A stretch of DNA of 64,000 bases. Origin: Nocardioides panzhihuensis (GTDB lineage: Bacteria; Actinomycetota; Actinomycetes; Propionibacteriales; Nocardioidaceae). Positions 38,199 to 46,905 of this stretch are shown in pieces. Both the position numbers and the translations under genes were made by a program. The notes beneath the pieces are model-generated. The model saw only the letters and a program-made list of their open reading frames with translations, had not been told where the DNA came from and searched no databases. The stretch's first letter is position 1. Each line of letters starts with the position of its first letter. The DNA lies in NCBI RefSeq assembly GCF_013408335.1, contig NZ_JACBZR010000001.1:4441501-4505500 (forward strand), written 5' to 3'.

Positions 38199-39992
38199 CT
38201 ACTCCTCGAAGGGCTCCTCGCCCTTCGGCTCCTCGTCGGTGAGACCCTCCACGAGGCGGTTCTTGACCATGTACGCCATCGCTCGGTCGGCTGCCCGGGC
38301 CTTGCGTCGCAGGGCCTCGACACCAGGGGCCTTCTCGTCGCTGTACGCCGCGAGCCGAGCGACCTCGCGCCCGGTCTGACGCTGGATCTCGGACATCGCG
38401 AGCCACACCCCGAGGTCCTGCTCGAGACCTTCGCGGGAGCGCAGGATCGCTGCGGTGAGGAGCTGGATGACGGTGACCTCGACGTCCTCGGCGGTGGACG
38501 AGCTGGAGACGAGGGTCGCCGCGATCGTGCCGGCGCCGGTGGTGGTGATCGCACCGGCGGTGACGAGGCCGCCGACCATCCCACCTGGCCCGAAGGCGGA
38601 GAGCGCCCCGATGATCGCGGCTCCCCCGGCCAGCCCGGCGGGGGCGGCCAGCGCGAGGCCGATCGGCCCGGCGACCAGCACCGCGGCTCCGATCCCGATG
38701 CCGACCCACAGCTTCCACTGGTCGACCGGGTAGACGGCCTTCGACGCAGACTGCATCGCGATGTGCAGGTTCTCGCCGAGCCCGCCACCGAGCCCCATCC
38801 AGACCGTCAGATCGTGGAATGCCTGGCGGCGTACGTCGTCGGGGACGTCGATCTCGTAGGGCCGCACCGGGTTGGCGGTGGCCAGCGCCACCAGGGCGAG
38901 GACGGCCTCTTCCTTGGAGAGCTGGGTCAGCGGCTTGGGCCGAGGCAGGTCCCGGTCACCGGGAAGGTCGGGCGAGACGCGCAGGTCCAGGAGCTGTTGG
39001 GGGATGCGTACGCCGTCGTGCTGGTAATTCTCGATCAGCCGTTCCAGGACCTCGTGCTGGACGACGCGCAGGGCGGCGCCGAAGCGCTCCTGAGTGGCGC
39101 CCTTGAGGTGGTCGCGGAGGAACTGGGCGTAGGCGAGCCACAGCTCCAGGCGCACCTCGAGCGAGTTGAGGGCGACGTCGGGGGTGCCCTCGACGAGCGC
39201 GACCTCCTTGGCCAGAGAGCCGAACAGGCCTCGTCCGATCGCAGTGGCGACCGGCTTCGAGCGGAGGTAGGTGGTGGTGCGGTGATCGAGGCCGAGCCCG
39301 ACCTGGAGATCGAGCGCCCACGGGAAGTGGCGCCAGATGCCCCGCAGCCCGGTCACCGCGTCGCCGTTGCTCCATACGTTGACCCACCAGCCGACGTGGT
39401 CGACGGGCGACTTCATCTCCAGACGGTCGGAGTCCTCGTGGAGGTTCGGGTGGGCGGCCGGGCTGCCGATGGTGACCAGCCCGACGACCGTCAGCTTCGG
39501 CGGGAGCCGGCGCAGCAGATCGATCGCGATGATCGAGCCGAGGCTGTGGCCGACGATGACGATCTCACCCTCCTCGGGGAGCTCGTCCAGGACCATGCGC
39601 AGCGTACGCGCCCGGATCCCGGGCTTGGTCACGTAGTTGTGCGCCTGACGGAGCACCCGCAGCACGATCGGCGCCAGCGAGTCGGTCACCCCGACCGGAG
39701 ACGCCGGGACAGGTTCACCGAGGATCTTCTCGAGCTCAGCGGTCGCACGCTCGACCCGGCGACGTACGCCCCGCTGCTCCTCGGCACTCGGTCTCGGCGT
39801 CGTGACCGGCGGGATCCTCAGGGTCTTGTCAGCGATATCGGTCCGGAGCACGTCCGGATACTTCGGCGCGATGACCTCGACCCCCTCGAGCCCCGGGTAG
39901 CCGACATCCTGGAGCGCCTTGTCCAGCGCGCGGCGCCAGGCGTCGCGCGGATCACCGTTGCCGACGCCGTGAAGGTAGAGGAGCGAGACCAC
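38199..39992 (-). CDS. Predicted serine esterase/lipase with C-terminal glycine-rich hydrophobic domain
   Basis: The 597-residue protein starts MVSLLYLHGVGNGD, an oxyanion-type HG motif. The nucleophile elbow GHSLG is at residues 148-152, followed by LVTIGSPAAHP, typical of lipases that act on lipids or large esters. Residues about 427-500 are almost free of charge and rich in Gly and Ala (IGIGAAVLVAGPIGLALAAP and following), a glycine-zipper-like membrane or pore segment. The end is charged and helical. No partner gene lies beside it. It is cytosolic or membrane-bound, since no signal peptide is present. Confidence 0.75.
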   Translation of the reverse strand: MVSLLYLHGVGNGDPRDAWRRALDKALQDVGYPGLEGVEVIAPKYPDVLRTDIADKTLRIPPVTTPRPSAEEQRGVRRRVERATAELEKILGEPVPASPVGVTDSLAPIVLRVLRQAHNYVTKPGIRARTLRMVLDELPEEGEIVIVGHSLGSIIAIDLLRRLPPKLTVVGLVTIGSPAAHPNLHEDSDRLEMKSPVDHVGWWVNVWSNGDAVTGLRGIWRHFPWALDLQVGLGLDHRTTTYLRSKPVATAIGRGLFGSLAKEVALVEGTPDVALNSLEVRLELWLAYAQFLRDHLKGATQERFGAALRVVQHEVLERLIENYQHDGVRIPQQLLDLRVSPDLPGDRDLPRPKPLTQLSKEEAVLALVALATANPVRPYEIDVPDDVRRQAFHDLTVWMGLGGGLGENLHIAMQSASKAVYPVDQWKLWVGIGIGAAVLVAGPIGLALAAPAGLAGGAAIIGALSAFGPGGMVGGLVTAGAITTTGAGTIAATLVSSSSTAEDVEVTVIQLLTAAILRSREGLEQDLGVWLAMSEIQRQTGREVARLAAYSDEKAPGVEALRRKARAADRAMAYMVKNRLVEGLTDEEPKGEEPFEE

Positions 39993-40064
39993 CTTCCGAT
40001 TCTCTCTTATGTCATGAGAAACACGGGGTTACGCGGGGCCGACTGTTTCTGGGGCGGGCTTGTC

Positions 40065-40218
40065 TAGACCCCATCCCCGCTGGCCGAGACCCCGACCCCC
40101 GCTGGCCGAGACCCCGACCTCCGCTGGCCGAGACCCCATCCCCGCTGGTCGAGACCCCGACCTCCGCTGGTCGAGACCCCATCCCCGCTGGTCGAGACCC
40201 CGACCTCCGCTGGTCGAG
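40065..40218. repeat. Tandem array of 21-22-bp repeats
   Basis: About eight units alternate between GAGACCCCATCCCCGCTGGYC (21 bp) and GAGACCCCGACCTCCGCTGGYC (22 bp). The GCTGGTCGAG motif at unit ends recurs in the dispersed repeat that begins at 40207. No gene covers 39993-40429, which holds this array, that repeat and inverted-repeat arm A. Confidence 0.9.
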
Positions 40219-40258
40219 CCGCCGGAGCCGCTAGGCGGAGGCGTGTCGAGACCAACAC
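40207..40258. repeat. Dispersed palindromic repeat, half copy
   Basis: These 52 bases match 54905-54956 at 51 positions. They run from CCGCTGGTCGAGCC to GTGTCGAGACCAACAC. Only one half of the larger palindrome at 54905-55021 is present here. Confidence 0.9.
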
Positions 40259-40296
40259 AGTTCCCTGCCGGAACGTCCCACCCAAAGGCCGGACAG

Positions 40297-40412
40297 GGCC
40301 GCCGACCCGACTTTCGAGGGTCTTCTCGACGAACCCCGGAGTCAAGGACGGCCTTCGGCCGCCGGCTACGCCGGCCGCTTCGCGGTCCTGGACACCGGAC
40401 CATGTCGAGAAA
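40297..40412. repeat. Long inverted repeat, left arm, outer part (A)
   Basis: Read rightward, this segment matches the reverse complement of 44939-45078, with some indels. Shared landmarks are GGCCGCCGACCCG, CCCGGAGTCAAGG, ACGGCCTTCGGCCGCCGGCT, CGCCGGCCGCT and GCGGTCCT. The match ends at GAGAAA, where IS110 DNA begins. Confidence 0.8.
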
Positions 40413-40429
40413 AGACGCTTCTATGTTTG

Positions 40430-41485
40430 TCAAGCGGTGTTGAGGGTGCGGTAGATCTGTCGGGTGGTGTAGCGCTTGAGGATGCGGCGGATCTCTCGGG
40501 TGGTCTTGCCCTCGGCTCGGCGTCGTTCGGTGTAGGCGCGGGTGGTGGGGTCGCAGCGCATGCGGGTCAGGACGATGGTGTGCAGGGCGCGGTTGAGACG
40601 GCGGTCCCCGCCGCGGTTGAGGCGGTGGCGTTGGGTGTTGCCGGAAGAGGCGGGGAGTGGGGCGGTGCCGGCGATCTTGGCGAAGGCGGTCTCGCTGCGT
40701 ACGCGGCCGGGGTGGGACCAGGCGGTGAGGATGATCGCCGCGGTGACGGGGCCGATGCCGGGCTGGTCGAGCAGGATGGGCGCTTGGTCGTGGACGAGTG
40801 TCTTGATCTGGTTGGCGTTGTCGGTGATCTGGGAATCGAGCTCGGTAATTCGGAGCGCGAGGCGCACGGCATGGGCCCTGGTGGTGGCGAGGTCGATGGG
40901 TTCTTCGCGGCGTCGCCACCGGGAGATGGTCTTGATCTGGGTGTTGGTCAGGGCACGGCGGGCGTCGATGTCGAGGTCGTTGGTCCGCAGCAATGCGGTG
41001 AGCGCATTGACTGCGCGGGTGCGTTCCCCGGTGGCCTGTTCACGGGCGGTGAGCAGGACTTGCAGCGCTGAGCGCACGCTGGCGGCGTGCTGGTCCCCAC
41101 CGCCGCGACGATCGCGGAGTCGGCGGGTCGGCGTCGTCAGCGTGGAGCGCGCCGCGGCGAGGGAGTCTATGGCGTCGTTCTTGCCCGCGGCCGGGTCACG
41201 ACGCGGGGTGGGGGCTTCCACGACCCGGTAGCCAGATACGGCCAGACGGCCGGCCAGGATCGCGCCGTAGGTGCCGGTGTCCTCTGCTGCGACCAGGGTG
41301 GCGTCGAGGTCGCCTTCGGTGCGGCGCCCGATCCAGTCGATTGCTCGGGTCAGGCCGGCGGGGCTGGCGGGAAACTGCTGCTGGTCGATCACTCGACCGG
41401 AGGACTCCAGGATGGTGTAGGTGTGGGTGGCCGCGTGGGTATCGACTCCCACGACGAATCTGAACAGGTCTGCCACGATGGTCAT
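40430..41485 (-). CDS. IS110-family transposase (DEDD recombinase)
   Basis: The 351-residue protein starts at the ATG at 41485. The RuvC-like DEDD domain shows Asp15 in VVGVDTHAATHT, Glu68 in VAAEDTGTYG, and Asp104 and Asp107 in KNDAIDS. The C-terminal Tnp domain has LLDQPGIGPVTAA and the serine-bearing PASSGNTQRHRLNRGGDRR. It would move the element through an RNA-guided mechanism. The gene appears intact. About 300 non-coding bases lie upstream and only 17 downstream, the layout of the IS110 subgroup. Confidence 0.93.
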   Translation of the reverse strand: MTIVADLFRFVVGVDTHAATHTYTILESSGRVIDQQQFPASPAGLTRAIDWIGRRTEGDLDATLVAAEDTGTYGAILAGRLAVSGYRVVEAPTPRRDPAAGKNDAIDSLAAARSTLTTPTRRLRDRRGGGDQHAASVRSALQVLLTAREQATGERTRAVNALTALLRTNDLDIDARRALTNTQIKTISRWRRREEPIDLATTRAHAVRLALRITELDSQITDNANQIKTLVHDQAPILLDQPGIGPVTAAIILTAWSHPGRVRSETAFAKIAGTAPLPASSGNTQRHRLNRGGDRRLNRALHTIVLTRMRCDPTTRAYTERRRAEGKTTREIRRILKRYTTRQIYRTLNTA

Positions 41486-41782
41486 CGGCGATGGACTCCT
41501 CTGCTTCGGGATGGACGTCGTCACCGGCGTCGGCCCGGGAGTGAAGTCACCACGAGGCATCACTGTGATGAGCCACGACCACGGCTGCTACCGGGTCGGA
41601 CATGCTTCTGATCAAGCCATCGAGGTGGGCCAGGGTCGGCGCCGGACCCCATCGAGACGGACACGTCTTTTCGAAGACACCACGAACATGATCGCGGGCC
41701 AATTTGGCTGGGAGTCACATCCCGACAGGACCGGCCCCGACCCTGCCAGCCAGCCCCAGGCCAGCCGTCATCAACACTCACA
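41486..41782 (-). ncRNA. Candidate bridge-RNA region of the IS110 element
   Basis: In the IS110 subgroup the bridge RNA is made from the non-coding stretch between the left end and the transposase start. That stretch is about 300 bases here and has no gene. I could not fold it, so the loops that match donor and target are not assigned. Confidence 0.35.
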
Positions 41783-41826
41783 GATTTGGCTGGCTAACGG
41801 GGCGGCGGCCCGGGTGTGGCGCAGCG
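41783..41826. repeat. Long inverted repeat, left arm, inner part (C)
   Basis: From GATTTGGCTGGCTAACGGGG to GTGTGGCGCAGCG this matches the reverse complement of 44899-44938 closely. It continues arm A beyond the IS110 insertion. Confidence 0.75.
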
Positions 41827-41895
41827 AAGTCTCGCTTCGGAACGGTGCTGTTCGTGGGGTGGGAGGGTGGCCCTTCGGGCCACTTACCATCCACA

Positions 41896-41910
41896 GGGCC
41901 AAGGCCGTTC
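41896..41910. repeat. Target-site duplication, left copy (IS481)
   Basis: GGGCCAAGGCCGTTC directly precedes the IS481 element and recurs directly after it at 43332-43346. Confidence 0.92.
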
Positions 41911-43331
41911 TGTCGTGTCTCAGGACATCGGTGACAGTTCTGCATCAGGACATCGGTGACGTTTGATGTGTCAGGACATCGGTGACGTTTTGAGGTTCCC
42001 GGGGCCGGGGTTGAGGGGTCGCCCGTTGCCGACGTAGGTGACGCCTGGTGCGGGTCGGGTGTGCTCGATGAGGATCTCGCCGTCCAGATCGGCGATGGTG
42101 ATGTTCTCACCGCTGGTGATGACCAGGACGTGTTCGTGACGACGTCCTCTGGCGACCTTGTACTGGACCTTGTCCAGGAAGAGTGTGCCGACGCAGGTCA
42201 ATTTCCGAGCTTGGGTGTCGGGCGGCAGGTCGGTCGGGATCACCGCTGGTCGCGGTCGGTGGGCAGGGGTGAAGGGTGTCGGCGTGGGTCGCGGTGCCTC
42301 GGTCTTTTCGGTGGCCTCCCACGCCGTCTGCGGCGTGACGCGGCCAGGTAGCCCTTGATGGGGGCGCTGGGTGTTGTAGATCTGGTCGAATGTGTCGACT
42401 TGGGCCTGCAGCTCGGCCAGGCTGGCGGCGAGTGGTTGTTTGTCGAGGTAGCGAAACAGGGTCTGGTGGAAGCGTTCGTTCTTGCCCTGGGTGGTCGGCT
42501 TGTAGGGCTTGCCGGTGATGGGCTCGACTCCCAGCTCCATCGCTCGCACCACGAGACGGCCCAATATCCCGCGCCGGGTCGGATTCAGCGCCAGGCCGTT
42601 GTCGGACAGCAGACGTTGGGGCACGCCGTGGGCCGTGAGGGCCTTGTCGAAGACGGCGACCGCCGCATCGGAGGTCTCTGCCCACGCCACATGGGAAGCG
42701 ACCGCGTAGCGGGAGTGGTCATCGATGAGCTGGAAGATCACGCACCTACGGCCCCTGGTCAAGACGTACTCGGTGGCATCCAGCTGCCAGCACGCGTTCG
42801 GTGCGGGGTACACGAACCGACGCCACGCCGAGCGGGGCTTCTTCCTCGGCTCAAGACGAGCCACACCAGCGGCACGGAAGATCCGTGCCAACGATGCGAC
42901 CGAGGGGACCGGGTCGAGCCCCATCGCGTGCATCTTGTCGTGCACGCTGATCGGGCCGTGGTCCAGGCCCGAGGACTCCAGTGCCGCACGCACCTCAAGG
43001 GCTTGCTGCTTGACCACCTCGGTGATCCGAGAAGGGCTCGCCTGGGGCCGCCGGCTGCGGGGCTCAAGCGCTGGGGCCGCGCCCTCGGCGCGAACCCTGG
43101 CACGGATCGAGTAGAAGGTCTTGCGAGAAATCTCGTGCTCGGCACAGAAGGTCGTCACCGCTCCCCGCGGCGCATCACGTGGCCACTCCACGATCGCGAG
43201 ACGGACACGAGGATCAACAGGCTCATTGGCAGGCACCACCCAAACCCAGCCAGAAGTGTCACCACCAAGGTGATTCGAAGTGTCACCGATGTCCTGATGC
43301 AGAACTGTCACCGATGTCCCGCGACATGACA
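41911..43331 (-). mobile_element. IS481-family insertion sequence, 1421 bp, complete
   Basis: The element is bounded by 50-bp terminal inverted repeats (41911-41960 and 43282-43331) matching at 47 positions, beginning TGTC. It is flanked by an exact 15-bp target duplication. The 15-base motif CAGGACATCGGTGAC occurs three times at the left end at about 25-base steps and twice, once with one change, at the right end. These are probably transposase-binding sites. Everything needed for movement seems present. Confidence 0.93.
41971..43239 (-). CDS. IS481-family transposase (DDE)
   Basis: The protein has 422 residues from the GTG at 43239 (VVPANEPVDPRVRLAIVEWP). The open frame continues upstream beyond the element end, so the start must be internal and this GTG is the likeliest. 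An HTH occupies residues 25-50 (FCAEHEISRKTFYSIRARV). The catalytic triad is Asp154 (WQLDATEY), Asp213 (LLSDNG) and Glu255 (GKNERFHQT). The C-terminal tail is typical of longer IS481 members. Its stop overlaps one of the end-repeat motifs. Confidence 0.9.
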   Translation of the reverse strand: MVPANEPVDPRVRLAIVEWPRDAPRGAVTTFCAEHEISRKTFYSIRARVRAEGAAPALEPRSRRPQASPSRITEVVKQQALEVRAALESSGLDHGPISVHDKMHAMGLDPVPSVASLARIFRAAGVARLEPRKKPRSAWRRFVYPAPNACWQLDATEYVLTRGRRCVIFQLIDDHSRYAVASHVAWAETSDAAVAVFDKALTAHGVPQRLLSDNGLALNPTRRGILGRLVVRAMELGVEPITGKPYKPTTQGKNERFHQTLFRYLDKQPLAASLAELQAQVDTFDQIYNTQRPHQGLPGRVTPQTAWEATEKTEAPRPTPTPFTPAHRPRPAVIPTDLPPDTQARKLTCVGTLFLDKVQYKVARGRRHEHVLVITSGENITIADLDGEILIEHTRPAPGVTYVGNGRPLNPGPGNLKTSPMS

Positions 43332-43346
43332 GGGCCAAGGCCGTTC
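43332..43346. repeat. Target-site duplication, right copy (IS481)
   Basis: An exact copy of 41896-41910. It lies 116 bases upstream of the DUF222-HNH start, so the insertion is in or near that gene's promoter. Confidence 0.92.
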
Positions 43347-43462
43347 GCTCACCGCGAAAACAAGGCTTGACCTGCGAATATAAGTAGAATTGAGCGGTCG
43401 AAACGAGTAGAATCAGACCCATCACGACACGCCTCTACACGCCGGAGAGGAGGGCGGCCGCG

Positions 43463-44725
43463 ATGAGTCTCGAACCCGAGATCAACCACTGGGGCACGAA
43501 CCCCGTTGATGCGATCGATGCAGGGCTCGCTGCCCTTGAGTCCTCCCTCGACAACCTGCTCGCGAGGGACCCGGCCTACTGGCGCACCGCGGAAAAGAAG
43601 AACCGGCTGAAGCACCTGGAGATCATCCAGGCCAAACAGGCCGCACTGAAGCTCCGGATCCTCGCTACTGCCGGTGACATCGCCGAAGAAACCGGCGCCA
43701 AAGATGCCTCGGGGTGGATGCTGACCGAGCTCTTGGTCGACAAGAAGATCGGCCGCGCCGAGGTGAAGTTCGCTGCCGCGGTGAGCAGATACGACCTCGT
43801 CGCCGCCGGCCTCGCTGAGGGTGTCGTGTCCCAGGAGAAGGCCCGGGTGATCACCAAGGCCCTCGAGGCGGTCGAAGCAGACCCGACCGCCAGTCGCGAA
43901 GACCTGGCCTACGCGGAGAAACTGTTGGTCGACTACGCCACCCGGCTGACCGCCGACGACCTCAAGAACATCGGGAAACGGATCCTGGTCGAGGTCGACC
44001 CCGAACGGTTCGAGGCCGCCGAGGCCAAAGCGTTGCAGCGGGAGGAAGAACACGCCCAACGGCGCACGTTCTTCACCTCCCGCGCCAACGGCGACGGGAC
44101 CGTAGACATCCACGCCCGGGTCTCCTACGCGGTCGGCATGAGGCTGCGCACCCTCCTGGACTCCCTGGCCCAGCCCCGGAAGTTGTCGGCTGAGGACCGC
44201 GGCCGCAAAGCACCGTATGACCGGCTGCTGGGCCAGGCCTTCGCTCGGATCGTTGAGACCTACGACGTCGACCAGCTCCCCCGACATGGTGGCCACGCGA
44301 CCACGGTGTTCATCACCATGGACGTCGAGGACCTCCGCAACGACCTCGGCACCGCCGCGTTGGGGTTCGACGGTGACAAGATCACCGCCGCCGAGGCCCG
44401 CCGGATGGCCTGCAACGCCGACCTCATCCCCGTCGTGCTCGGCACAGGTTCCGACATCCTCGACTTCGGTCGCACCACCCGCCTCGCGCCCCCGGTCCAA
44501 CACCGAGCACTCCGGTTACGAGACAAGTGTTGCCAAGCCGAAGACTGTGACGCCCCCGCGGCCTGGACCGAGGCCCATCATCTGAAACCTTGGTCCCAAG
44601 GCGGGCTTACGAATCTGGCCAACATGGTCTTGTTGTGTTCCAGCGATCATCGCCGGATCCACGACCCGAACTACGACTATGAGCGACTCCCGGATGGTCG
44701 GATCCGGTTCGCCCGCCGCGTCTGA
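43463..44725 (+). CDS. DUF222-HNH endonuclease (13E12 repeat family)
   Basis: The 420-residue protein starts at the ATG at 43463 behind GGAGAGGAGGG. Residues about 30-320 are the DUF222 domain, mostly helical. The HNH nuclease ends the protein: CQAEDCDAP, TEAHHLKPWSQGGLT, NMVLLCSSDHRRIHD with its Cys and His metal ligands. The family corresponds to the M. tuberculosis REP13E12 repeats and is present in many copies in actinobacteria, but its function is unproven. The gene is intact. It lies between long inverted repeats, suggesting a self-contained unit. Confidence 0.92.
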   Translation: MSLEPEINHWGTNPVDAIDAGLAALESSLDNLLARDPAYWRTAEKKNRLKHLEIIQAKQAALKLRILATAGDIAEETGAKDASGWMLTELLVDKKIGRAEVKFAAAVSRYDLVAAGLAEGVVSQEKARVITKALEAVEADPTASREDLAYAEKLLVDYATRLTADDLKNIGKRILVEVDPERFEAAEAKALQREEEHAQRRTFFTSRANGDGTVDIHARVSYAVGMRLRTLLDSLAQPRKLSAEDRGRKAPYDRLLGQAFARIVETYDVDQLPRHGGHATTVFITMDVEDLRNDLGTAALGFDGDKITAAEARRMACNADLIPVVLGTGSDILDFGRTTRLAPPVQHRALRLRDKCCQAEDCDAPAAWTEAHHLKPWSQGGLTNLANMVLLCSSDHRRIHDPNYDYERLPDGRIRFARRV

Positions 44726-44898
44726 TCACGTATCCCTGGCTGCCCTGTCCCCGGCGGCTGTCCCGGCCTGTTCCGGCCCGCCGAGCTCGACCTTGTGAAC
44801 GATTCACGAGGTGTCATCGTCTAGTACAGCGCCCCGCAAACCTCCCCTGGCAGAACCGGCTACCCCTGGTCCCCAATCCCGTACCCAACCCGAAATCC

Positions 44899-45078
44899 GC
44901 TGCGCCACACCCCGCCGCCGACCCGATAGCCAGCCAAATTTCTCGCCGGATCACGGTGTCAAGGACCGCGATAGCGGCCGGCGAAGCCGGCGGCCGAAGG
45001 CCGTCATCTCGACAAGCTCGATACATCGCCTTGACTCCGGGATACGGCGAGAACACCATCCAATACGGGTCGGCGGCC
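44899..45078. repeat. Long inverted repeat, right arm, intact (B)
   Basis: Read on the minus strand from 45078, this arm matches A (40297-40412) and then C (41783-41826) without interruption. It is the unbroken counterpart of the left arm. It occupies most of the gene-free stretch 44726-45115. Confidence 0.8.
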
Positions 45079-45115
45079 CCAACCCAACGAAGACGACCAG
45101 CCCCGAGCGCCGAAC

Positions 45116-45763
45116 CTAGTCGCCGTCCAGCCCCTGCTCGATTGCGTAGCGCGTGAGCTCGACGCGATTGTGCATCTGGAGCTTGCGCAGGATGTTCTGT
45201 ACGTGGTTCTGGACCGTGCGGTGGGACAGAACCAGGCGGTCGGCGATCTGGCGGTAGCTCAGGCCCTTGGCGACTAGCTTGAGGATCTCGGTCTCGCGGT
45301 CGGTGAGCGTGGGCTTGTCTCCGCGTACCTCGGTGGCGGCGCTGTGCTGGAACTCGCCCAGGACCAGGCCGGCCAGGCCGGGGGTGAAGACCGGGTCGCC
45401 GGCGGCGACGCGGCGTACGGCTTCCAGGAGCTCGTCGCGGGAGGCCGACTTGATCAGGTAGCCGGTGGCTCCGGCCTTGACTGCTGCGAGGACGTCGTTC
45501 TGCTCGCCGGAGGCGGAGAGGATGAGGACCTTGGTCGTCGGGTGCAGAGAGATGATCTCGGTGGTGACCTGGACACCGTCGGGCTCGGGGATGTGCAGGT
45601 CGAGCACCACGACCTCGGGCCGCGTCGCGGCGAACCTGGTGATCGCTTCCCGGCCGGTGCTGGCGGTGGCGACGACTTCGAAGCCCGCGGCAGCGAGGTC
45701 GCGCTCGACCGCGTCGCGCCACATCGGATGGTCGTCGACGACCATCAACCTGACCGCGGTCAC
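45116..45763 (-). CDS. Response regulator, NarL/LuxR type
   Basis: The 215-residue protein starts at a GTG overlapping the kinase stop (GTGA). The receiver has the acidic pair in LMVVDDHP, the phospho-acceptor Asp55 in VVVLDLHIPEPDG and Lys in GYLIKSAS. The LuxR HTH covers about residues 148-192 (LTDRETEILKLVAKGLSYRQ, then LSHRTVQNHVQNILRKL). It pairs with the kinase directly upstream. The receiver-HTH order and MacS-like partner resemble the MadRS/MacRS systems of actinobacteria. Confidence 0.93.
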   Translation of the reverse strand: MTAVRLMVVDDHPMWRDAVERDLAAAGFEVVATASTGREAITRFAATRPEVVVLDLHIPEPDGVQVTTEIISLHPTTKVLILSASGEQNDVLAAVKAGATGYLIKSASRDELLEAVRRVAAGDPVFTPGLAGLVLGEFQHSAATEVRGDKPTLTDRETEILKLVAKGLSYRQIADRLVLSHRTVQNHVQNILRKLQMHNRVELTRYAIEQGLDGD

Positions 45764-46905
45764 CGGTGGTCGAGCCTGTCGAGACCCATGCGAGGAACGA
45801 CCATTTCCCATTCCGTCCCAGTCCTTCCTGTGATGAGTTCGGCCGTGCCCCCGAGATCGAGGATCCGGCCCCGGATCGAGCCGGCGATGCCCAGCCTGCC
45901 GTCCTTCTCGGCCGTGGCGACGCGACCATCGGGGATACCCGGGCCCTCGTCGCGCACCGAGATCTCGACATGGTCGGGGAACGCCTGCAGGAGCACCCAG
46001 GCGCGAGCGTCCTCACCGACATGGCGGCGTACGTTGTCCAGCGCTGCGCGGGTCGCCGCGACGATCTCCTCGGCGGGGTGTGCGGGCATCTCGACGGCGG
46101 TCGCGGGTCCGGAGACGGTCACGGTGCCGGTCTCCACCTGGGCCAGCGCCGCAGCCAGGTCGACCATCCCGGCGGCCGGGCCACGGCCGGGCTGCTCGCC
46201 ACGGATCAACGCTCTCAGCTCACGCTCCTGCTCCCCCGCCAGCCTGCCCAGCTCGGCACCGTCGCCACCGAGGTCGCCGCCGCGGCGCTGGACGAGAGCA
46301 AGCACCTGGAGCACGCCGTCGTGGACCGCCCGGGCGAGCCGCGCTCGCTCCTCGGCCCGTGCCGCCGCACGTTCGGCCTCGTCCCGCTCGAGCGCCATCC
46401 GCTGCACCGACTCGCACATGTAGCCGACCACCGGGCCGCCGATGACCAGCAGGAACGCGTTGCCGTAGATCGACTGGTCGATCTCCTGACGCAGTCCGAG
46501 GTCGACCGCGGCCAGCGCCACACCGGCCAGCAGACCGCCGATCCAGCGATAGTGGATCGCACACGCGAGCAGCGCGCCGCTCACCCAGAAGCCCGGCACG
46601 CTCGCCTGGAACCCCGAGCCCTTCACCAGCGGCGTCACGAGCAGGAGCCCGAGCGAGATCACCAGGTCGGCGCCGACGAGCGCCGCGGTGCGCCGGGTGG
46701 GTGCCGCGTACGCCCAGACGGCGAAGGCCGTCCAGCTCACCATGACGAGCGCGCAGACCAGCGCCGCCGACGGCGGATCGAAGTTGCCTGCACGGTAGGC
46801 GGTCAGGCCGATGGCATTGACGAGAACGACCACGCGCAGCACCGCGAGAGCCCGGAAGAGCCGGTTCTCGACCTCGATCGCCGCCGGCGACGTCCACGCA
46901 CTCAC
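45760..46905 (-). CDS. Sensor histidine kinase, HisKA_3 type
   Basis: The 381-residue protein has five or six membrane spans in residues 20-165. The dimerisation helix follows, with phospho-accepting His195 in RARLARAVHDGVLQVL. The HATPase end has the N-box in ALDNVRRHVG and a DEGPGIPDG glycine loop. It is coupled by GTGA to its response regulator. The last residues (GLDRLDHR) are encoded by a copy of a dispersed repeat motif. Confidence 0.9.
   Translation of the reverse strand: MSAWTSPAAIEVENRLFRALAVLRVVVLVNAIGLTAYRAGNFDPPSAALVCALVMVSWTAFAVWAYAAPTRRTAALVGADLVISLGLLLVTPLVKGSGFQASVPGFWVSGALLACAIHYRWIGGLLAGVALAAVDLGLRQEIDQSIYGNAFLLVIGGPVVGYMCESVQRMALERDEAERAAARAEERARLARAVHDGVLQVLALVQRRGGDLGGDGAELGRLAGEQERELRALIRGEQPGRGPAAGMVDLAAALAQVETGTVTVSGPATAVEMPAHPAEEIVAATRAALDNVRRHVGEDARAWVLLQAFPDHVEISVRDEGPGIPDGRVATAEKDGRLGIAGSIRGRILDLGGTAELITGRTGTEWEMVVPRMGLDRLDHR
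45765..45787. repeat. Dispersed repeat motif inside the 3' end of the kinase gene
   Basis: GGTGGTCGAGCCTGTCGAGA followed by CCC resembles the ends of the repeat at 54905-55021 (TGGTCGAG and TGTCGAGACC), with the middle missing. It encodes the last few residues of the kinase next to the coupled start of the regulator. Confidence 0.6.

Follow-up and report, generated by a model that had tools for sequence, protein, structure and literature searches.

Genes of the 13E12 type, which join a DUF222 domain to an HNH nuclease domain, occur as repeats in the genomes of many actinobacteria and, in Mycobacterium tuberculosis, are gene-conversion hotspots; they have no defined function. A 2026 preprint (PMC13061034) reports 87 gene-conversion events in the REP13E12 regions of M. 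tuberculosis, which are said to "lack defined biological function". Another article (PMC10589994) counts REP13E12/HNH/DUF222 among repetitive elements. In the portions of the open-licence literature on DUF222, REP13E12, and 13E12 that were available to us, we found no description of defined ends or of mobility for DUF222-HNH units. Here, we analyze a DUF222-HNH gene of Nocardioides panzhihuensis (assembly GCF_013408335.1), a member of the Nocardioides albus/luteus clade with a genome of 6.3 Mb in 3 contigs. The gene lies in a stretch of 64,000 nucleotides (contig NZ_JACBZR010000001.1, positions 4,441,501 to 4,505,500), which we call the window and whose coordinates we use throughout. Our comparisons give good support to a family of mobile units whose ends are defined and structured, and we consider it probable that the window unit is a copy, of what we name subfamily A, of such a family of small mobile units in this clade, spreading by homing-like copying driven by the HNH nuclease.

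Several known systems share some traits with these units. Free-standing HNH homing endonuclease genes, such as those of T-even phages, consist of a lone intergenic HNH gene that is present or absent at orthologous sites and undergoes gene conversion. The units resemble them in all three respects; unlike them, they are dispersed in many copies, have ends that are structured, and have given rise to derivatives without the gene, and their cut site is only putative. With the REP13E12/13E12 family they share the two domains, the many copies per genome, and the exchange between copies. What sets the units of the clade apart is that their ends are defined and palindromic, that gene-less derivatives exist, and that some sites are empty; no ends of this kind were found in the DUF222 loci read outside the clade. 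Like miniature inverted-repeat transposable elements (MITEs) and inverted-repeat transposons, the family includes gene-less two-arm units of about 0.5 kb alongside gene-bearing ones, and has empty sites in relatives. However, in contrast to inverted-repeat transposons, the right arm is optional in gene-bearing units, there is no known transposase of their own, and no target duplication is readable. Finally, repetitive extragenic palindromes (REPs) and REP-associated tyrosine transposases (RAYTs) resemble our system in that a nuclease gene goes with a palindrome of which many copies stand on their own, and differ from it in having a tyrosine (HUH) nuclease instead of HNH; here, moreover, the REP is at the left end only. 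The arms themselves are unlike REPs in being placed at DUF222 genes (38 of 44 in the host) and not scattered independently of one gene.

The unit in the window

A preliminary description of this locus proposed that a single DUF222-HNH gene is enclosed by long inverted arms, in an ancestral unit later interrupted by two insertions. The inverted match is indeed present: the outer (40297-40412) and inner (41783-41826) pieces of the left arm, once joined, align with the reverse complement of the right arm (44899-45078) with 140 identities in 152 aligned positions. The alignment has 35 gap positions, mostly in one stretch of about 24 bp exclusive to the right arm, and a local score of 173, when the best of 300 mononucleotide shuffles scored 31. 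Using the covariance model presented below and the arm alignment, we place the outer piece of the left arm at 40298..40412 (plus strand), where it starts with GCCGCCGACCC, and the inner piece at 41783..41826 (plus strand). The right arm, an inverted copy with the additional 24 bp or so close to its tip, spans 44916..45077 on the minus strand, and the complement of GCCGCCGACCC ends at 45077. Between the arms, the intact gene of subfamily A (43463..44725, plus strand) encodes 420 amino acids.

Both insertions are real and recur at identical points in other copies. The first, an IS110-family insertion sequence (IS), splits the left arm (40413..41782, minus strand) and carries a transposase frame at 40430-41563 (minus strand). 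The second, an IS481-type element with an rve transposase frame (41971-43425, minus strand), lies between the left arm and the gene (41911..43328, minus strand) and is flanked by an exact 18-bp repeat at 41893..41910 and 43329..43346.

Copies and arms in the host genome

The host encodes 33 DUF222 loci (34 rows, two of which are the halves of one broken gene), hence several copies per genome as in the 13E12-type family. They fall into four subfamilies: A with 8 loci, B with 8, C with 6, and D with 11. Six other unbroken A proteins are 90-94% identical to that of the window and one is split; identity to the window protein is 57-59% in B, 41-44% in C, and about 22% in D, whose proteins start with MNETVDxLL.

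The covariance model was built from 36 arms and used to score 150 of 12614 first-look candidates, which makes the 44 arm places identified in the host a lower bound. Among these, 43 score above 100 bits and one, a partial arm, scores 40.7. The model was trained on many host arms, which match by construction, and the informative result is the small number of others (6). Arms cluster with the genes: 38 of the 44 have an A, B, or D gene at a distance of 3.5 kb or less, a number that averaged 1.87 and reached at most 8 in 2000 random placings. An arm is present at all 27 A, B, and D loci and at none of the 6 C loci. Two arms were found at 6 of the 8 A and 5 of the 8 B loci, and exactly one at each of the 11 D loci. 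A BLAST search with the window arm alone (best 40 of 189 candidates) revealed nothing outside the 44 places and recovered 6 of the 11 D arms. The six arms away from the genes are in four gene-less units (L076-L079), some degraded, with inner palindromes of their own. The same arms thus recur with DUF222-HNH genes elsewhere in the genome, and we reject the idea, which would have refuted the preliminary description, that they are ordinary REPs scattered without such genes.

Gene-less units are also found in three congeners (G198, G135, and G051), where five with both arms measure 483 to 547 bp (L172-L176; L174 measured from its arm). Being short, lacking the gene, and sharing their ends with gene-bearing units, these fit the definition of a MITE; those of the host are partly degraded. 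Other arrangements concern the number or the state of the arms. Three left arms stand in tandem ahead of one DUF222-HNH gene in N. luteus JCM 3358 (L153, 1563-2248), and one strong plus two weaker arms lie upstream of a single gene in G135 (L180). Three gene-less unit remnants (L193, L196, and L197) have kept the core and seem to have lost their arms near the hairpin base.

Arm fold, unit ends, and the associated REP

The arm is an imperfect palindrome that can be folded into a cloverleaf, in which a long stem carries three hairpins at its tip. The fold has 38 pairs, and 97.9% of the cells are paired, a value that falls to 24-48% (at most 48.1%) when partners are slid by 1 to 3 columns. Two-sided changes affect 11 pairs (7.1 in shuffles) and 81 cells (26.3 in shuffles). 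As judged from these counts, made on the very sequences from which the fold was derived, the fold is conserved through two-sided base changes. A known structured RNA was ruled out, since Rfam gave no match up to an E-value of 1 within 39900-45500.

Units have two types of right end. Long units terminate near GACCAGC: L064 and L065 are nearly identical through the right arm and diverge directly past CCAGC, which corresponds in the window to the end of the outer right tail (45078..45101, ending in GACCAGC). Short units end at the gene. In D, similarity to L120 stops at most 18 bp from the HNH stop codon in 9 of 10 copies, the tenth being internally shortened. In C, it stops within about 15 bp of the stop codon in all five comparisons. 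In G135 and G198, nine units of type A or B (L178-L181 and L184-L188) have an upstream arm only. Eight short B units, one of them L068 of the host, gave 25 comparisons of copies from different sites, in all of which the similarity ends between -2 and +12 bp of the stop codon (three further pairs, which represent the same site, were set apart). Inverted flanks exceed shuffles by more than 3 points in 5 of 5 A or B units tested, with an excess above 100 points, and in none of 10 D units. Three D units (L114, L115, and L117) have an extra small gene right after the HNH gene, presumably a DUF1048 gene, and end at about its stop codon. Hence, enclosure by inverted arms describes the window copy and does not extend to the family as a whole, where all 11 D units and the nine units of relatives have the upstream arm only; the general anatomy is one constant left end with an optional right arm.

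A bolder and less probable reading makes DUF222-HNH proteins the enzymes that drive a new class of mobile elements, an HNH counterpart of RAYTs. The protein would recognize the cloverleaf palindrome and the REP at the constant end, and the other end would be set by the stop codon or the second arm. An end set by the stop codon would explain where C, D, and short A and B units terminate, as well as the neighboring gene of some D units. Gene-less two-arm units would be mobilized in trans, and REPs would be left behind. If this were true, the many actinobacterial 13E12-type genes would be copies or relics of such elements.

We find it doubtful that the arms are the terminal inverted repeats of a cut-and-paste transposon for which DUF222-HNH would be an HNH-type transposase. 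The pairs of arms of A and B host units, inverted in all five tested, and the resemblance of the gene-less units of 483-547 bp to MITEs fit this explanation, but every D unit, as well as the nine upstream-arm units in G135 and G198, lacks the downstream arm. In addition, no target duplication was seen in the diverged junctions, the DUF222 model does not resemble a solved transposase fold, and the units have no known transposase domain of their own, the IS110 and IS481 transposases being those of later insertions.

A 42-bp REP palindrome (GGTCGAGCCGCCGGAGCC...GTCGAGACC) is found outside the left arm, always in the same orientation, in 26 of the 27 A, B, and D units of the host, a count that includes a manual placement of the degenerate left arm of L064. 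It is 45 bp from the arm in 13 of 16 A and B units and 58 bp from it in 10 D units, and none of 12 right arms has one. In the window, it lies at 40212..40253 (plus strand), 45 bp outside the left arm, next to an array of imperfect REP-like repeats (40058..40211, GCTGGTCGAGACC...) that differs among copies. The host has this palindrome in 80 places, 28 at left ends of units and 52 elsewhere; with these scattered copies, the palindrome itself fits the definition of a REP. Its fixed place at the left ends, together with the existence of gene-less units, would be expected if the units were passengers, i.e., if an unrelated enzyme such as a RAYT moved REP and arm in trans with the HNH gene as cargo. 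We regard this as unlikely: 52 of the 80 REPs are elsewhere, in Nocardioides sp. YR527 and N. turkmenicus several units lack the REP and start, past a short tail, with the arm, and no transposase gene was noticed inside the units besides those of nested IS, although no systematic search was made.

Empty sites in related genomes

The absence of any empty site would likewise have spoken against the preliminary description; we find several such sites. The right flank of the window unit (45118-45600) is present in all 9 genomes of the clade. In the 8 congeners, the site is empty in five (G051, G011, G135, G198, and G015, with flanks 33, 25, 29, 29, and 29 bp apart) and occupied in three: by an apparently broken A unit (one stop) in G159, an A unit in N. 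albus (G062), and a B unit with a right arm in G001. The site of L063 is empty in 3 of 4 congeners (G011, G015, and G051), the fourth, G001, having a B unit there; that of L066 is empty in 2 of 3 (G011 and G015), and only G051 has a unit at it. G198 and G011 lack the L177 unit of G135, and G062 lacks the gene-less L173 unit and has other palindromic DNA in that place. Judged by distance, the sites of L172 and L174 also seemed empty in some species, but most hold remnants of gene-less units, some with arms cut out near the hairpin base, and were discarded.

In the junctions read, the unit adjoins the stop codon of at least one neighboring gene. The window unit sits between two host genes of the same strand. 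The stop codon of a response-regulator gene (45116..45811, minus strand) adjoins it on the right, where the flank of the empty site matches from 45118/45119, and the start codon of the next gene (38199..39992, minus strand) adjoins it on the left, where the match extends to 40004/40011. At L090, a small gene that by eye looks like a P-loop kinase lies between the C unit and the conserved right flank of the host, and is absent at the corresponding site of G159 (L121).

An old host gene family grown by duplication, with the arm as a conserved 5' leader or other gene structure and the empty sites as losses, is the least probable explanation, as it fits the sole upstream arm of D units, the purifying selection described below, and the 20 copies of a distant genome (G230) that are similar along the coding region only, but not the inverted second arm downstream, the gene-less two-arm units, the absence of the unit alone between otherwise continuous flanks in several species, or the occupation of one site by different subfamilies (A or B).

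Distribution beyond the host

Units of this type have a narrow distribution. Arms matched at E-values up to 1e-8 in 14 of 215 Nocardioides genomes, 9 strongly (best match of at least 141 bits) and 5 weakly (52-67 bits). Proteins of A or B type (E-values up to 1e-100) were found in the same 9 genomes as the strong arms, plus one relative with 44% identity in G098. The filters of this survey were strict, and the figures per genome are lower bounds. Copy numbers in draft genomes are probably underestimated as well, because contigs end inside or beside units (in relatives, for example, at L136, L148, L152, L154, and L156, among others).

Across the phylum, DUF222 has matches in 27 of 60 genomes. 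The 20 copies of G230 come from another class. Upstream self-complementarity is at least 15 points above shuffles in all 15 A, B, and D units tested; elsewhere it is clear in 3 of 15 other loci (L220, L222, and L226) and slight (at most 9 points) in 9 of the 20 G230 loci. Since it exceeds shuffles in some loci outside the clade, other upstream palindromes are possible in other genera. Inverted flanks above shuffles were found in none of the 15 other loci and in 1 of 20 of G230, by 2 points. The arms are thus not a trait of 13E12-type genes at large.

Spread by phages or plasmids was also considered and rejected, as the relatives found, in one phage and 6 plasmid records, are distant and all below 60% identity. 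One of the plasmid relatives (30% identity) is annotated as "13E12 repeat family protein".

Protein, selection, and exchange between copies

The window protein matches PF02720 (DUF222, 78.9 bits) and PF01844 (HNH, 36.2 bits), both above the curated cut-off. In an alignment of 36 sequences, H373 and the cysteines 357, 362, and 392 are invariant and N387 and H396 are conserved in at least 90%. The protein would thus be an HNH nuclease with conserved catalytic residues, as homing endonucleases can be. Its HNH region has sequence similarity to McrA (E-value 6e-4), and a weaker one to IscB and to a group II maturase. A first structure model was poor (predicted local distance difference test, pLDDT, of 55.9), and we used a second AlphaFold model made with the 36 sequences (pLDDT 81.2, predicted template modeling score 0.45), in which the N-terminal half is predicted to be helical. 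The top weak matches of high probability given by Foldseek in the PDB are HNH nucleases (McrA, a Geobacter HNH nickase, and IscB). In the viral library, mostly HNH proteins lead, with one viral protein at an E-value of 9e-4. On the basis of this model, DUF222 remains without a fold relative in these structure searches. A role in defense was set aside, as PADLOC gave no match for one A, one C, and one D protein.

The genes are under purifying selection, to judge from substitution rates between host copies: the mean ratio of non-synonymous to synonymous rates (dN/dS) is 0.12 in A (7 of 8 genes), 0.13 in B, 0.14 in C (4 of 6), and 0.13 in D (8 of 11), with dS about 0.4. The value for B is no proof of present function because most of the divergence in B must predate the recent IS110 insertions described below.

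Copies also appear to exchange sequence. L064 and L065 share an identity run of 87 polymorphic sites (559 bp identical) that was matched in 0 of 1000 permutations, and shorter runs are found between the window unit and L063 and between L062 and L065 (33 sites, p = 0.006). In these alignments, such runs point to gene conversion between copies.

A proposed homing-like mechanism

The unit consists of the cloverleaf arm as the constant left end, with the REP outside it in this species, followed by the DUF222-HNH gene; the long form then has a second, inverted arm, whereas the short form has nothing past the stop codon. In the mechanism that we propose, the DUF222-HNH protein would bind the arm or a similarly structured site, and its HNH domain would cut or nick DNA. 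Repair would then copy the unit into intergenic sites and convert existing copies, in a homing-like way, and gene-less units would be copied likewise in trans. IS110 and IS481 elements subsequently land at fixed points of the unit. The HNH nuclease is likely the driver of mobility; we take it as the simplest one because it is the sole gene carried, and is intact and under selection.

A number of points weigh against this mechanism. Copies are old (mean dS of about 0.4 within one genome), and no very recent copy of a whole unit was found. The empty sites could in part be losses. No target-site duplication or motif was readable in six units (window, L061, L063, L066, L090, and L177) and three gene-less sites, because the intergenic flanks have diverged even in the nearest species. 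The C units are without arms, and the arms were seen in this clade only (the arm model gave one chance-level match on 49 DUF222 loci outside it), so elsewhere the nuclease family can do without them. The co-occurrence of arms and proteins within a single clade lacks independence as evidence. Regarding the fold, further pair types are no more numerous than in shuffles (17 against 17.9), and template-switch correction in a long palindrome can also yield two-sided changes. Finally, Foldseek gave no match in the PDB at an E-value of 0.001 or better for the DUF222-HNH model.

We know of no case of an HNH-type nuclease acting as a transposase. If the HNH enzyme does the moving, the units would be mobile elements driven by a type of nuclease not known in this role. 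More generally, this clade, in which unit ends are clear, some sites are empty, derivatives without the gene exist, and the nucleases are intact, makes the function of 13E12-type genes testable at the bench, in harmless soil bacteria, as that of a mobile element.

Units as landing sites for insertion sequences

In 7 of the 8 B units of the host (L069-L075), an IS110 element of 1336 bp is inserted at exactly one HNH codon. The copies of this element are 99.9-100% identical, whereas the DUF222 parts of the carriers are 85-94% identical and other segments 80-98%. Co-amplification of the IS with the B units is therefore rejected, and the seven copies are separate insertions at the same codon. They provide a clear example, from nature, of a coding sequence that is targeted by an IS110 element in a sequence-specific way. 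The IS110 of the window (99.9% identity) is also found in the arm of the gene-less unit L078. Two different IS110 elements thus hit fixed points of the units, which recalls the members of this family whose copies all lie in REPs, according to PMC1525189. Unlike in those, one of the two targets is not a REP but coding sequence, that of the HNH domain in B units.

The IS481-type element of the window (99.9% identity) occupies the same point in the A units L061 and L065, hence in 3 of the 8 A units, and is found in both orientations. Each of its copies has its own 18-bp flanking repeat, which is longer than usual for the IS481-type family. Like the REPs of PMC1525189, the units thus attract IS that insert in a sequence-specific way.

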